From Brachypterus glaber (Eukaryota; Arthropoda; Insecta; Coleoptera; Kateretidae): DNA of 64,000 nt. The notes below the pieces were generated by a model. It did not search any database. It had not been told where the DNA came from and saw only the letters and a program-made list of their open reading frames with translations. The translations under genes were made by a program, and so were the position numbers. The first letter of the stretch is position 1. Each line of letters opens with the position of its first letter. Where the stretch lies: positions 28,755,265 through 28,819,264 of the forward strand of contig OY294051.1 in the NCBI GenBank assembly GCA_958510825.1, given 5' to 3'. Shown here in pieces: positions 9,667-56,977 of this stretch.

Positions 9667-29638
<19,972 letters not shown>

Positions 29639-31850: not shown

Positions 31851-32254
31851 CCACCGTAAGACCAAATAGGTTAAAAAGTTTTTCTGGAAGATTTTGACTA
31901 TTTAATCGCTCACTCAAGGAGGTTGTGAGGATTTCAAAAACACATCACACCCAGGTTGAGTGAGTCAACAAACAGCCATACATAAATGTGGATTTTTCTT
32001 TTCTTCTTGATTATTATTATTATTATAAATTTAAATTAAAAGTATTAGAAATAATTTAAAAATATAACCAGCCACTCGAATGAGCGAGAATACTTTCTCA
32101 TAAAAAAGTTATGTTTAGAAACAATTTATTACATTTTGGGAAAAGGGGGGTGTCATATTTTTTGTGTAAATTTATTTTACCTTTTAATGTATTTAAATAT
32201 ATTTTGTTGACTTACCATATGTACAATGTATCAAAAATGGTTAATAAATTAATA

Positions 32255-33030: not shown

Positions 33031-33059
33031 AGGGTAAGGAAATAAATTATTTTTTTTAT

Positions 33060-33301
33060 TGCTTGTTTTACATTTTTAGACGTTTTATATACAAAAATAG
33101 TATATTCTATAACTAGTATGGAATAGACAATATTCCGCGCAAGCGGAAAGTTTGTCGAGCCGGTCGGCGAGTATGACGGTTGCTTGTTTTACATTTTTAG
33201 ACGTTTTATATACAAAAATAGTATATTCTATAACTAGTATGGAATAGACAATATTCCGCGCAAGCGGAAAGTTTGTCGAGCCGGTCGGCGAGTATGACGG
33301 T
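33060..33301. repeat. 121-bp tandem duplication
   Basis: 33060-33180 and 33181-33301 read identical by eye. It spans 36 bp of flank plus the outer hairpin half of family 1 copy C. Confidence 0.85.
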
Positions 33302-34813: not shown

Positions 34814-34971
34814 TAACTTGTAACTACGATAACTCGAGAACGCTTTAAGATAAATACTTCTTTGGAATATTATCGAAAGTTTTCGGCTGGGTTAACTTGT
34901 AACTACGATAACTCGAGAACGCTTTAAGATAAATACTTCTTTGGAATATTATCGAAAGTTTTCGGCTGAAA
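34814..34971. repeat. 79-bp tandem duplication
   Basis: TAACTTGTAACTACGATAAC to GTTTTCGGCTG occurs twice with 79-bp period (34814 and 34893), practically identical. Confidence 0.85.
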
Positions 34972-39443: not shown

Positions 39444-40974
39444 ACCTCTCCAGATTTGGAAAAAAACTTTTAGGACATGTTAAGTGGTATTTCTAACTTG
39501 GAAGTTCATACTTGGACTTCTTAACCGAGTTCTTAACTTTGCTAGTAATTTGATTATAGAATAACAAAATAGTTTATGAGAACATTATATCTACAATGGA
39601 ATAAAAAAATAGACAACTTTGTCCCAACTTTTAAAATATAGCCCAGATTTTTCAACTTTAGATAGTTATATACAATTGAAAACAACTTTTTAAAATGCCC
39701 GTCCGTCTTTCTGTTCGTTTGTCCGTCCATCCGTTTTTATGTTAAACTCAAGAAAGTAATATCCAGTCGAAGTAACATTAAGTGTTACTTCGACTGGACT
39801 TTTCTTCCACTATCTTCGATTTTCCTAAATTTTTAAAAAATCGAAGATAGTCGAAGAAAACTCCGATCTACTTTTTTCAGGAACTTTTATTAAAAAAGCT
39901 TAATCGTAGCTTTGACAAAAGAGCCCCAAAAAACAATTTATAAGGAGCTATTAAAGTAATTTTTCAGGAAAAAAATACTTTATTAAAAGAACCAATCCTA
40001 CCAAATTTAAAAAACATCTAACAAAAAAGTTTAGCTTAAAACTTCACCACACTCTAAATTTGTCAATCTTACAGTAGTTTTAACTGTAATAATTAAAGCA
40101 AATTTACAATCTCAGAATGTGAATTTACAATATTCATTAAATTAACCTCAATATTACTGGGTTTAGTAAAATCTCAGCTCTTTTCCTGTCGGTACAATAA
40201 TTTTGCATTAAAATTCATGCTAGTGGTCCAAAAAGCCGGCACTTTTTTTCCGAAAATTACAAGAGCCCGTAATACTGCTTGAAATACACATTAAATTCGA
40301 TGCTTAAATTACTGTGAAATCACAGGTAAAAATTCACATTTTTACAGATATCTGTGAATTTACAGTACTGATTTAAATTTATCACTTTCTTTGCTGGCAA
40401 CATATGACCTACTTTATTTGCTGTAAAATTACCATATTTGCATTTACAGTGCAGGAAAAAATTTACAAGTGCGAGGAGTATATGTACTATAGAATGCGAA
40501 GCATTGTTCATCTTCACGGATTGTTATACCTAACATTCTGTCGCAGCTTTATAATTTAAAATATGCAAATATAGAGCAACTAAGCTATAGTAAAGCTGAC
40601 ATAGTTACTTTCTAATTACTCTACGAGAAAATTACCATACGGGCACAAAATCACTGTATCGCACAGACGGCATTTTTTTAAGTAAATAATAGCTGTTGCC
40701 CTACTGCCCCAGGGCAGTAGACTGCCATCCATTTTTTGCAATGGTATACCTGTGTTGATAATTTCAACTGTGTATAAAATAACGGTTTTGTTTGACGTTT
40801 GAGAATTAATTCGAATTTTGAGGTTATATTTGTCGACAGTTACAGTTGTATCAGTAGGTACAGTTAGGGACCCTAAATAAAGTGAGATTAAACCTCACGT
40901 GTGACGTTTAATGTCATTAGTTATAGGGTCCATAGGTATAGTTATCTTTTGGTAATTCTTTACTCACTTAACTA

Positions 40975-41258
40975 ATGTTAAAACCAAAATATTATATAAA
41001 GCTAAATACTGACCTTGCAAAAGCATAGGGAAATTACCCGCACTTCCCTTATATCCATTTTAGATTTTTGTCATAAATATTTTGTCTAATATAATAGGGC
41101 TGTACAGTACGCATGTATACCTAATTCAAAACAAGAAATATAAATAAAAATATAAATCTAAAATGGATGTAAGGTAAGTGCGGGTAATTTTCCTATTCTT
41201 TTGTAAGGTCACTATTTAGCTATAGGTAAAATTTTAGTTTTAACATTAATAAACCTTA
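40975..41258. mobile_element. Foldback element, about 100-bp arms
   Basis: Left arm includes CCTTGCAAAAGCATAGGGAA, TTACCCGCACTTCCCTTA and ATCCATTTTAGAT; the right arm is the complement with a few changes. Centre is AT-rich. Confidence 0.75.
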
Positions 41259-53397: not shown

Positions 53398-53737
53398 ATA
53401 AACAATGCAGGTTTCTTGTGATGACATATGTATAGATCCATACCCATAAGTCCAAAATTCCAAATGACCTAGGAAATATGGCAAAAAAAGTTAATTAAAC
53501 AAACCGAGGTAGGAAAACAGCCGGCAAAAAATTTAACTTCCTCTTAATTTCATTTTTTTTTAAGCGGTTGCTTCTACAGTGTTACGCTATATGACATTTT
53601 TTTATGTATTTTTACTCAAGCAATCTATATTTTTTAAACTAAATTAAATTGTTTGATATTTACAAATTTAAAAGATCTATATAAAACATTTTACTATTCC
53701 TTAAAACGACTTTTGTTTGATTAACGCAGTCGTCCCT

Positions 53738-53792
53738 CCGAAGTGACTGATCGATTTCGTGCTTTTTAGCACTCTTCAGAGCCACATATCGG
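53738..53792 (-). ncRNA. Hammerhead ribozyme (type I), copy 1
   Basis: On the minus strand: CCG/CGG outer stem I, GTGGCT pairing with AGTCAC (one G-U), core CTGAAGA, stem II GTGC-TAAAAA-GCAC, core GAAA, a three-pair self-complementary stem III (ATC/GAT), and cleavage expected after GATC. All conserved core bases are present. Stem III has no loop, so cleavage may need a dimer, as for Penelope and newt hammerheads. Confidence 0.8.
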
Positions 53793-54173
53793 TAGTAGGG
53801 ACAACCACGAAAATCAAAACCTTTCCATATATCTCTATATAGAGTTTAAAAATCGTTATAAGGAAAAGCAAAAACAACTAGCGACATCTACTGCTAAAAG
53901 CAGAGACTGGATAAACCTATCGACAGTCCAAAAAAGGAAGCAGTTATTGGTTTCAAGAACCTATTGCACGCTGTCGATAGGGGGCAGATTAATCAATGCC
54001 ACGGTGGACATTGCCGCCAATTGAATCCTAAACGCTAGGAGGTCACCTTTTACAGTGGTATCTGAATTAATAAACTAAATTAAATTGTTTGATATTTACA
54101 AATTTAAAAGATCTATATAAAACATTTTACTATTCCTTAAAACGACCTTTGTTTGATTAACGCAGTCGCCCCT

Positions 54174-54228
54174 CCGAAGTGACTGATCGATTTCGTGCTT
54201 TTTAGCACTCTTCAGAGCCACATATCGG
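54174..54228 (-). ncRNA. Hammerhead ribozyme (type I), copy 2
   Basis: Exactly 436 bp from copy 1 and identical to it over 55 nt, although the flanks differ at several positions. Confidence 0.8.
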
Positions 54229-54547
54229 TAGTAGGGACAACCACGAAAATCAAATCCTTTCCATATATCTCTATATAGAGTTTAAAAATCGTTATAAGGA
54301 AAAGCAAAAACAGCTAGCGACATCTACTGCTAAAAGCAGAGACTGGATAAACCTATCGACAGTCCAAAAAAGGTTCTTGAAACCAATAACTGCTTCCTTT
54401 TTTGGACTGTCGATAGGTTTATCCAGTCTCTGCTTTTAGCAGTAGATGTCGCTAGCTGTTTTTGCTTTTCCTTATAACGATTTTTAAACTCTATATAGAG
54501 ATATATGGAAAGGATTTAATTTTCGTTTGGACTTTTTGTCCCTACTA

Positions 54548-54602
54548 CCGATATGTGGCTCTGAAGAGTGCTAAAAAGCACGAAATCGATCAGTCACTTC
54601 GG
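54548..54602 (+). ncRNA. Hammerhead ribozyme (type I), copy 3
   Basis: In the inverted copy, on the plus strand; same 55 nt. Core CTGAAGA at 54561-54567, GAAA at 54582-54585, predicted cleavage after C54591. Confidence 0.8.
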
Positions 54603-54699
54603 AGGGACGACTGCGTTAATCAAACAAAAGTCGTTTTAAGGAATAGTAAAATGTTCTATATTTTTTACTCAAATTCCAAAAAAAAATAGAAAAAAGTTG

Positions 54700-55646: not shown

Positions 55647-56029
55647 TAATTGTAACCTTTTTTCACACATTTTTTTTCCTTTTCCAATTATCCAATCAAC
55701 TTACGCAGTAACTATAGCGATAAAGAACTTGACGTGTAACTGATTTTATGCAAAAACCGCAATTCGAAAAAAATTTTGCTTGGGCCCTTATGAATGTTGC
55801 TCTTTTCATATAACACCAATTGCCCAAATGAAAAAAATTAATTGAAATTAATTGTCCAGTTGTATATAGTAAAAGTAGCTACTCGAAATGTACGTTTACC
55901 TGACTGGACCAATACGTGTCACAACCATGTATGAGGACATTTCAAACGTTGATGGGATTAAATTTTTTCCCTGAACTAGAAGAGCCCTGCACTGTAACAA
56001 GAGTATGTTGATTTACATTATTTCTAATT

Positions 56030-56353
56030 TAGCTTTTTGATTTTTGGGGAATAGGGCTTTGGATCTGACTAAAATTGTTATCTAATTTTGCTGTGACGTT
56101 TCGACGATGGATTTTCGTCATTTTCGAACAAAGAATTAAAGCCAAAGATTAGTCATTGTCACTAACAGTAAACACTCACATAAACAAAACATTATTTAAA
56201 CAAATAAATAACAGTTAAAAAATAAAATCATGACAATGTACTTTACTATACGCAGCAACCGAACCTACTATAGGTTCGGTTGCTGTCACAGCAAAATTAG
56301 ATAACAATTTTAGTCAGATCCAAAGCCCTATTCCCCAAAAATCTAAAAGCTAA
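56030..56353. repeat. Inverted repeat with about 70-bp arms
   Basis: TTTTTGGGGAATAGGGCTTT, GGATCTGACTAAAATTGTTA and TCTAATTTTGCTGTGA at the left, complement at 56284-56353. The left side also has GTTTCGACGATGGATTTTCG, a phrase like Penelope/LINE tails. A 9-bp hairpin CCGAACCTA-CTA-TAGGTTCGG lies before the right arm. Confidence 0.7.
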
Positions 56354-56977
56354 ATTATACAAATCGGGCAAAAACTTTCAATTCATTATTTGTAATGTTA
56401 TATTACAGTATTTTAAAAGGTTATTTTTAATTTTATACAAAAAAGTAGTATTACCATATTTTTAAAGTAAATATTCATTTTAGGAGTAATTTTACTATTA
56501 TTAAGTGGTTTTTTCGTATCTTATGTAATTTTAAAATATATTAATACAAATATTATATTAGCCCTATGGTATTATAACATTATATATAATAAAATAATAC
56601 ACAATATTTACATCCGACGAGATGGGTCATACCATACACTAGATTGGTCCGAAACGGCTCACCTAGTATACATCTATTCTTGTTACGGTGTGCGTTAGGA
56701 AAAATAAATATTTTTTTCTTCAAGCGTATTAAAATGTTCATATTTTATAACTGAACACACTAGATAGAAGTGATCTATTTTTTTACAGTAAAAAAATGAG
56801 TTCATTGTTGTACGCCGTAAAAAAAAGTTAGCAAAACCACCACTGGCGGCAGCACTCTTTGACTTTGATGACAGCCATACTCAAACTTGTTTGTTTGTTA
56901 TGTAAACAGGTGGTTGACTCGAGATTCTGTGCAAAAACCTTCTGTGAAATTGATTAAAAATTATTGAAAAAGAATAA

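Follow-up and report, generated by a model that had tools for sequence, protein, structure and literature searches.

A young family of predicted hammerhead units in the beetle Brachypterus glaber with Penelope-type insertion edges at two fixed positions

Metazoan non-LTR retrozymes, as characterized in the accessible part of their description, consist of AT-rich monomers in tandem, each bearing a type I hammerhead, occur as dimers to multimers, show target duplications longer than 4 bp, and give RNAs of about 170–400 nt, with repeats of 150–450 bp also mentioned (PMC7229834). One of them, the axolotl HHR_Amex1, has a weak stem III made of a single pair and a palindromic tetraloop, and is said there to work mainly as a dimer (PMC7229834). 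As the mover of animal retrozymes, Penelope-like elements (PLEs) are named a strong or likely candidate in two papers, on the grounds that the two kinds of element have hammerheads and tandem copies in common and occur together (PMC7229834, PMC7761336). In a typical Penelope insert two direct pLTRs enclose an ORF and an inverted pLTR lies next to them; the published example has a target duplication of 9 bp, one of the inverted pLTRs may carry a 31-bp tail, and head-to-head is the commonest arrangement (PMC3846280, available text). According to the available text of an in vitro study, the anole PLE protein cleaves both target strands and extends them, favours AT-rich DNA, and begins reverse transcription from two sites inside the RNA, which explains the tail; published PLEs carry hammerheads as well (PMC11167929). 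An insect precedent is the pDo500 satellite of Dolichopoda cave crickets, a hammerhead-bearing repeat of about 500 bp for which single or double-hammerhead folding has been proposed; it differs from the element described here in being a satellite, reported to make up about 5% of a genome, and no insertion edges are described for it in the accessible portion (PMC2837043).

The 64-kb stretch of Brachypterus glaber DNA analysed here (the window) contains a single insertion of 1,020 bp at 53635–54654, between target duplications of 11–13 bp. The left duplication, TCTATATTTTTT(A), occupies 53624–53636, with its last 2 bases possibly belonging to the element, and recurs as a 13-nt direct repeat on the right at 54655–54667, such that the expected empty site is a single TCTATATTTTTTA. 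Read in the ribozyme sense, which is the minus strand, the insertion runs from an inverted piece through a 5′-truncated unit to a full 436-nt unit. The full unit lies at 53635–54070 (minus strand, GC 0.367); the truncated second unit, at 54071–54373 on the same strand, covers unit positions 134–436; and the inverted piece, at 54374–54654 on the plus strand, covers unit positions of about 112–385 and stands head-to-head with the second unit. The first-pass annotation had read this region as a direct/inverted 436-bp repeat, and the direct copies are indeed spaced by 436 bp and differ at 4 of 303 aligned bases, but the inverted copy falls short of a full unit: it is a 281-nt piece fused to the truncated one. 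Wherever all three copies can be aligned, each difference occurs in a single copy, in agreement with the expectation that all three were identical at insertion. No further copies of the unit were found elsewhere in the 64-kb window. Several miRNA-type Rfam matches at 54285–54484 all fell under their cut-offs and represent the palindrome of the inverted junction. A circular fold of the unit is strong (z −7.1 to −7.9), yet 2 of 40 random windows lie at or below −7.1, and we dropped strong self-pairing as proof of a retrozyme because these controls fold equally well.

Other features of the window include a mir-67 family microRNA precursor on the minus strand at 31898–31975, above the Rfam cut-off at 66.3 bits, an intact 1481-aa Gypsy-type ORF on the plus strand at 11883–16328 with RT, RNase H and integrase domains, and a hemopexin-type exon. 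Two perfect tandem duplications of 121 bp and 79 bp lie about 1.5 kb apart at 33059–33301 and 34814–34968, and two inverted repeats are foldback or MITE-like, one at 56025–56357 (73 nt at 99%, arms 187 nt apart) and the other at 40968–41253 (100 nt at 87%, arms 86 nt apart).

Each part of the insertion contains one predicted type I hammerhead, and sequence comparison showed that the three 55-nt segments at 53738–53792 (minus), 54174–54228 (minus) and 54548–54602 (plus) are identical, with coordinates, strands, core bases, stem I, stem II and GATC site all as first annotated. Specifically, the 55 nt read CTGAAGA, a stem II of GTGC(T)/(A)GCAC closed by an A-rich loop, GAAA, and GATC preceding the cut, and the type I core is present as C3U4G5A6-N-G8A9, G12A13A14, A15.1-U16.1 and H17, with stems I–III and open at stem I. 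Cleavage is predicted between 53749 and 53748 in the first hammerhead, 114 nt before the unit 3′ end, between 54185 and 54184 in the second, which is the same site shifted by 436, and after 54591 in the third, placed by position within the identical 55 nt. A type I hammerhead descriptor run over both strands of the 64-kb window matched only these three sites and gave 1 match in 60 shuffled windows, ruling out a chance hammerhead. Seven bacterial matches to a hammerhead pattern had stem I pairing of 2 bp or less, and a stricter pattern gave zero matches in viral contigs.

Scored with Infernal against Rfam, as the first-pass annotation had proposed for the Hammerhead_1 model, the three sites find their best model in Hammerhead_HH9 (RF02275) but remain under its gathering cut-off of 52, at 28.4, 28.4 and 27.6 bits (E 1e-4 to 1.8e-4, 1.1 kb searched); a single site as query aligned over the whole model, 1–77, with E 1.1e-5, and a default Rfam scan of the window returned no hammerhead reaching the gathering score. 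The unit ribozyme resembles Hammerhead_HH9 in its A-rich loop II and differs from it in that its stem III loop leaves 5 model positions unfilled. An internal loop in stem I and the A-rich loop II, candidate partners for a loop I–loop II contact, are both present, and in the predicted fold of a 739-nt transcript with two ribozymes stems I and II have pair probabilities of 0.9–1.0. Stem III consists of nothing beyond ATCGAT, a 6-nt palindrome, which fits action as a dimer and parallels the stem III of HHR_Amex1, the palindromic tetraloop being UCGA in the unit (PMC7229834, accessible part). The fold calculation itself does not show a dimer hammerhead, since two copies together reach −42.8 kcal/mol vs −20.2 for one, hardly above twice the single value.

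In the host assembly of 648 Mb the unit forms a young family with dispersed copies. A 101-nt query around the ribozyme found at least 40 genome matches, and the whole unit gave 1,006 first-look candidates, the best 40 of which, once scored, held at least 141 matches in 40 clusters, most of them, full units included, at 97–100% identity, with up to four complete units per cluster. Two sets of loci were drawn from these searches. The first comprises 24 other clusters fetched from the 101-nt search plus the window locus, and includes five older clusters (L035–L039, 72–91% identical) that were excluded from edge counts, leaving 20 young loci (the window and L016–L034); the second comprises the 40 scored clusters from the whole-unit search, which were classified by coordinates and, being picked by high score, are biased towards full-length units. 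Target duplications of 9–16 bp flank 18 of the 20 young loci of the first set, with none at L018 and L029, and no poly(A) was present at the 3′ edges read.

The most regular property of these insertions is that the unit 3′ end often faces outwards at both edges. Such double-ended insertions account for 39 of 59 young loci, comprising 16 of 20 in the first set, as we read the alignments, and 24 of 40 in the second, with one locus common to both; in the second set, coordinates identified 21 and reading of the upstream side three more, and in the first set L016 is counted as double-ended with an inverted piece of only 9–14 nt. In all 39, one edge lies at unit position 434–436 and the other at 385–419. 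The second edge narrows to 385–402 in the 16 fetched loci once the target duplication is removed, and spans 390–419 in the remaining double-ended loci, where the duplication was kept and the higher values probably include chance matches into it. Projected onto the window's full unit, the two putative reverse-transcription start sites lie on the minus strand at 53635–53637 (unit positions 434–436) and 53669–53686 (unit positions 385–402). No pair of edges from the same site was seen, whereas free choice of site by each strand predicts about half, which suggests a pairing rule of one edge of each kind per insertion. At the window locus, the unit RNA at the start of the inverted copy could base-pair for 7 nt, including one G-U, with the 3′ terminus of the second target strand, and such pairing is possible at 2 of 436 unit positions. 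The unit contains two copies of the 9-mer ATCAAACAA, at positions 350 and 414, one ahead of each insertion edge, and these could mark reverse-transcription start sites.

The other 20 of the 59 loci fall outside the double-ended count, 13 of them as classified from match coordinates. In the first set, L018 and L027 have a single orientation with the edge at 436, L031 a single orientation with the edge at 396, and L029 is head-to-head with one edge at 256 and no target duplication. Nineteen clusters of the second set were first called single-orientation, and their 3′ edges fall at 435–436 in ten and at 388–403 in nine; six were then read upstream, where three proved double-ended, two remained single and one was complex. 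At C2:93428533, among the other 13, an antisense piece stands at the cut edge. Ten of the 19 clusters appeared to start exactly at unit position 387, an artefact of the trimming of search matches, as the junctions show the element continuing.

The unchanged core of the three window copies had been taken as a suggestion of selection, which does not follow from the window itself, where 4–8 changes in 258 bases give a chance of 0.15–0.38, not significant, for finding none in 55 nt; some divergent copies in the genome do bear the suggestion out. Among young copies, changes number 12 in 2324 positions within the 55 nt vs 163 in 10543 outside, 19 of 372 sliding windows show no more change than the 55 nt, and variable sites number 7 of 55 vs 95 of 371 (p 0.04), so the ribozyme is little varied there, though not uniquely so. 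Older copies, pooled over the six of eight segments that span the whole 55 nt, changed at 24 of 330 hammerhead positions vs 185 of 883 outside (Fisher p 2.5e-9, with cells that are not independent). A divergent relative at 1444–1624 of L035, perhaps a second family, keeps 55 of 55 hammerhead positions while 30 of its 125 other aligned positions differ, and L038 and L039 together show little sparing (16 of 165 vs 29 of 199). From these alignments, hammerhead sparing appears convincing only in older copies, with L038 and L039 adding little.

Copies within one insertion resemble each other more than copies from different insertions, the mean unit difference being 0.0088 vs 0.0128 (42 segments; 9 of 2000 label shuffles as low). 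This likeness comes from opposite-strand pairs (0.0068), whereas same-strand pairs, at 0.0120, are near the between-insertion value. The pattern is what a single RNA template for both arms would give, whether that RNA was a circle or a multimer.

PLEs resident in the same genome have a similar insertion anatomy. A search for GIY-YIG domains, in which the best 150 of 419 candidates were scored, gave at least 31 matches, and in 12 stretches fetched around such matches the ORFs of L060 (716 aa), L064 and L066 hold both RVT_1 and GIY-YIG. At L060 and L063, PLE repeats stand about 3.0 kb apart with 98–99% identity and form tandem PLEs. Six PLE loci were tested for edges: L064, L066 and L068 have head-to-head ends, target duplications of 15–18 bp and one edge that is longer by 23–31 nt, a range that depends on how the overlap is assigned, and L065, L070 and L071 have no clear target duplication. 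L059 is also head-to-head, and an inverted repeat at L071, a rejected candidate, does not enclose the GIY-YIG match of that locus. The unit likewise combines a head-to-head inverted copy, a target duplication and unequal ends, its edges being 32–51 nt apart, and it shares with published PLEs direct and inverted copies, ends that differ in length by some tens of nucleotides, an AT-rich target and a hammerhead close to where reverse transcription starts. The described PLE tail measures 30–40 bp (available text of the PLE papers), and the distance from hammerhead cut to edge is 114 and 63–80 nt in the unit vs 85–92 nt in the anole PLE by stated positions (PMC11167929, available text).

The resemblance does not extend to sequence. 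The descriptor found no hammerhead in 20 short or 12 longer GIY-YIG stretches, Rfam found none in two stretches, and a hammerhead-like CTGAGGA in L066 did not survive the Rfam check, so a shared ribozyme forms no part of the argument for PLEs. Alignment of the unit 3′ region with L060, L064 and L066 gave scores within those of shuffles, the best, for L066, being equalled by 11 of 200. One candidate for shared 3′ sequence, 72 nt at 560–630 of L059 with 68% likeness to unit positions 364–435 (E 3e-4), beat 141 control windows but was set aside because it lies about 160 nt outside the PLE. The unit thus has the insertion anatomy of the resident PLEs without their end sequence.

Taken together, these features support the original suggestion of a Penelope long terminal repeat or a retrozyme, in that an apparently non-coding hammerhead tandem monomer occurs in insertions of Penelope layout. 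The unit is probably a non-autonomous member of the metazoan retrozymes, with PLE enzymes mobilizing it in trans. It forms tandem monomers in which no protein genes were found, each with a hammerhead, its GC content is below 50%, its target duplications exceed 4 bp, and its length falls in the 150–450 bp range of monomers; at 436 nt it is longer than the RNAs of described metazoan retrozymes, which measure about 170–400 nt. It also has frequent head-to-head insertions with two fixed edges, for which no counterpart was noticed in the accessible description of metazoan retrozymes (PMC7229834). A rather unlikely alternative is that the unit is the pseudo-LTR of an autonomous PLE, surviving as solo or tandem pLTRs after coding loss, with no separate retrozyme family. 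Its layout, target duplications and tail do match Penelope pLTRs, PLE pLTRs carry type I hammerheads according to the available text (PMC11167929), and the minimal stem III is as described for PLE ribozymes in the accessible sources. Against this, the linked reverse transcriptase with GIY-YIG that the first-pass annotation asked for did not turn up: none of 64 unit places (24 fetched, and the best 40 of 1,006 scored) lies less than 40 kb from any of the at least 31 GIY-YIG matches listed among the best 150 of 419 candidates. Pfam gave no match for four ORFs tested in the insertion, and hence no RT and GIY-YIG ORF was found there, the unit making up the whole element; stem II, which holds the start of the ORF in the anole PLE, has no ATG. 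Lacking the coding part that defines PLEs, the unit is not filed as one.

Twin priming as practised by L1-like elements makes inverted 5′ ends together with target duplications, and a LINE-type RT fragment is present in the window, both of which would be expected if a LINE moved the retrozyme and the inverted piece arose by ordinary twin priming. Twin-primed inverted ends begin at variable internal points, unlike the 39 of 39 double-ended loci in which the end lies at one of two places, and with 3′ edges that lack poly(A) where read, we regard a LINE as an improbable mover. Spread of a satellite-like or inert repeat with a fossil hammerhead by duplication at the DNA level would account for the tandem units and for the changes that some genome copies carry inside the 55 nt, but scarcely for dispersed insertions each with its own target duplications, edges confined to two places and several divergent copies that spare the hammerhead, and we give this account almost no credence.

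On the preferred reading, a retrozyme moved in trans by PLE enzymes, tandem copies would be transcribed and the hammerheads would cleave the transcripts at GATC, probably most efficiently when two of them share the palindromic stem III, after which 436-nt monomers may be closed into circles, perhaps by a host ligase. A PLE protein would then nick both strands of AT-rich DNA about 9–16 bp apart, and in a single event reverse transcription would start inside the RNA from both broken ends, at unit position 434–436 and about 32–51 nt upstream. The two cDNAs would grow towards each other, sometimes through several rounds of the unit, and join head-to-head. We put at about even chances the broader proposition that animal retrozymes are to PLEs what SINEs are to LINEs, and that these insertions record a PLE enzyme pair that uses both target strands simultaneously as primers on a single circular ribozyme RNA, each strand always at a different one of the two fixed sites. 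For the anole PLE in vitro, no strand-dependent difference of start site was observed according to the available text (PMC11167929), which gives a strict strand rule no support.

What is new here is the insertion shape, with the 3′ end at both edges and at two fixed positions; among the titles and abstract openings listed in literature searches, we recognised no report of a retrozyme with insertion edges of the Penelope type. Here, within one genome, a young family shows the Penelope-type insertion signature at fixed positions, and the resident PLEs show the same signature. The family also supplies a large set of natural insertion products that may show how the two cDNAs of a PLE are joined, a later step still to be validated according to the in vitro work on the anole PLE (PMC11167929). 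The question of what moves retrozymes thereby becomes testable by counting edges in any retrozyme-bearing genome.
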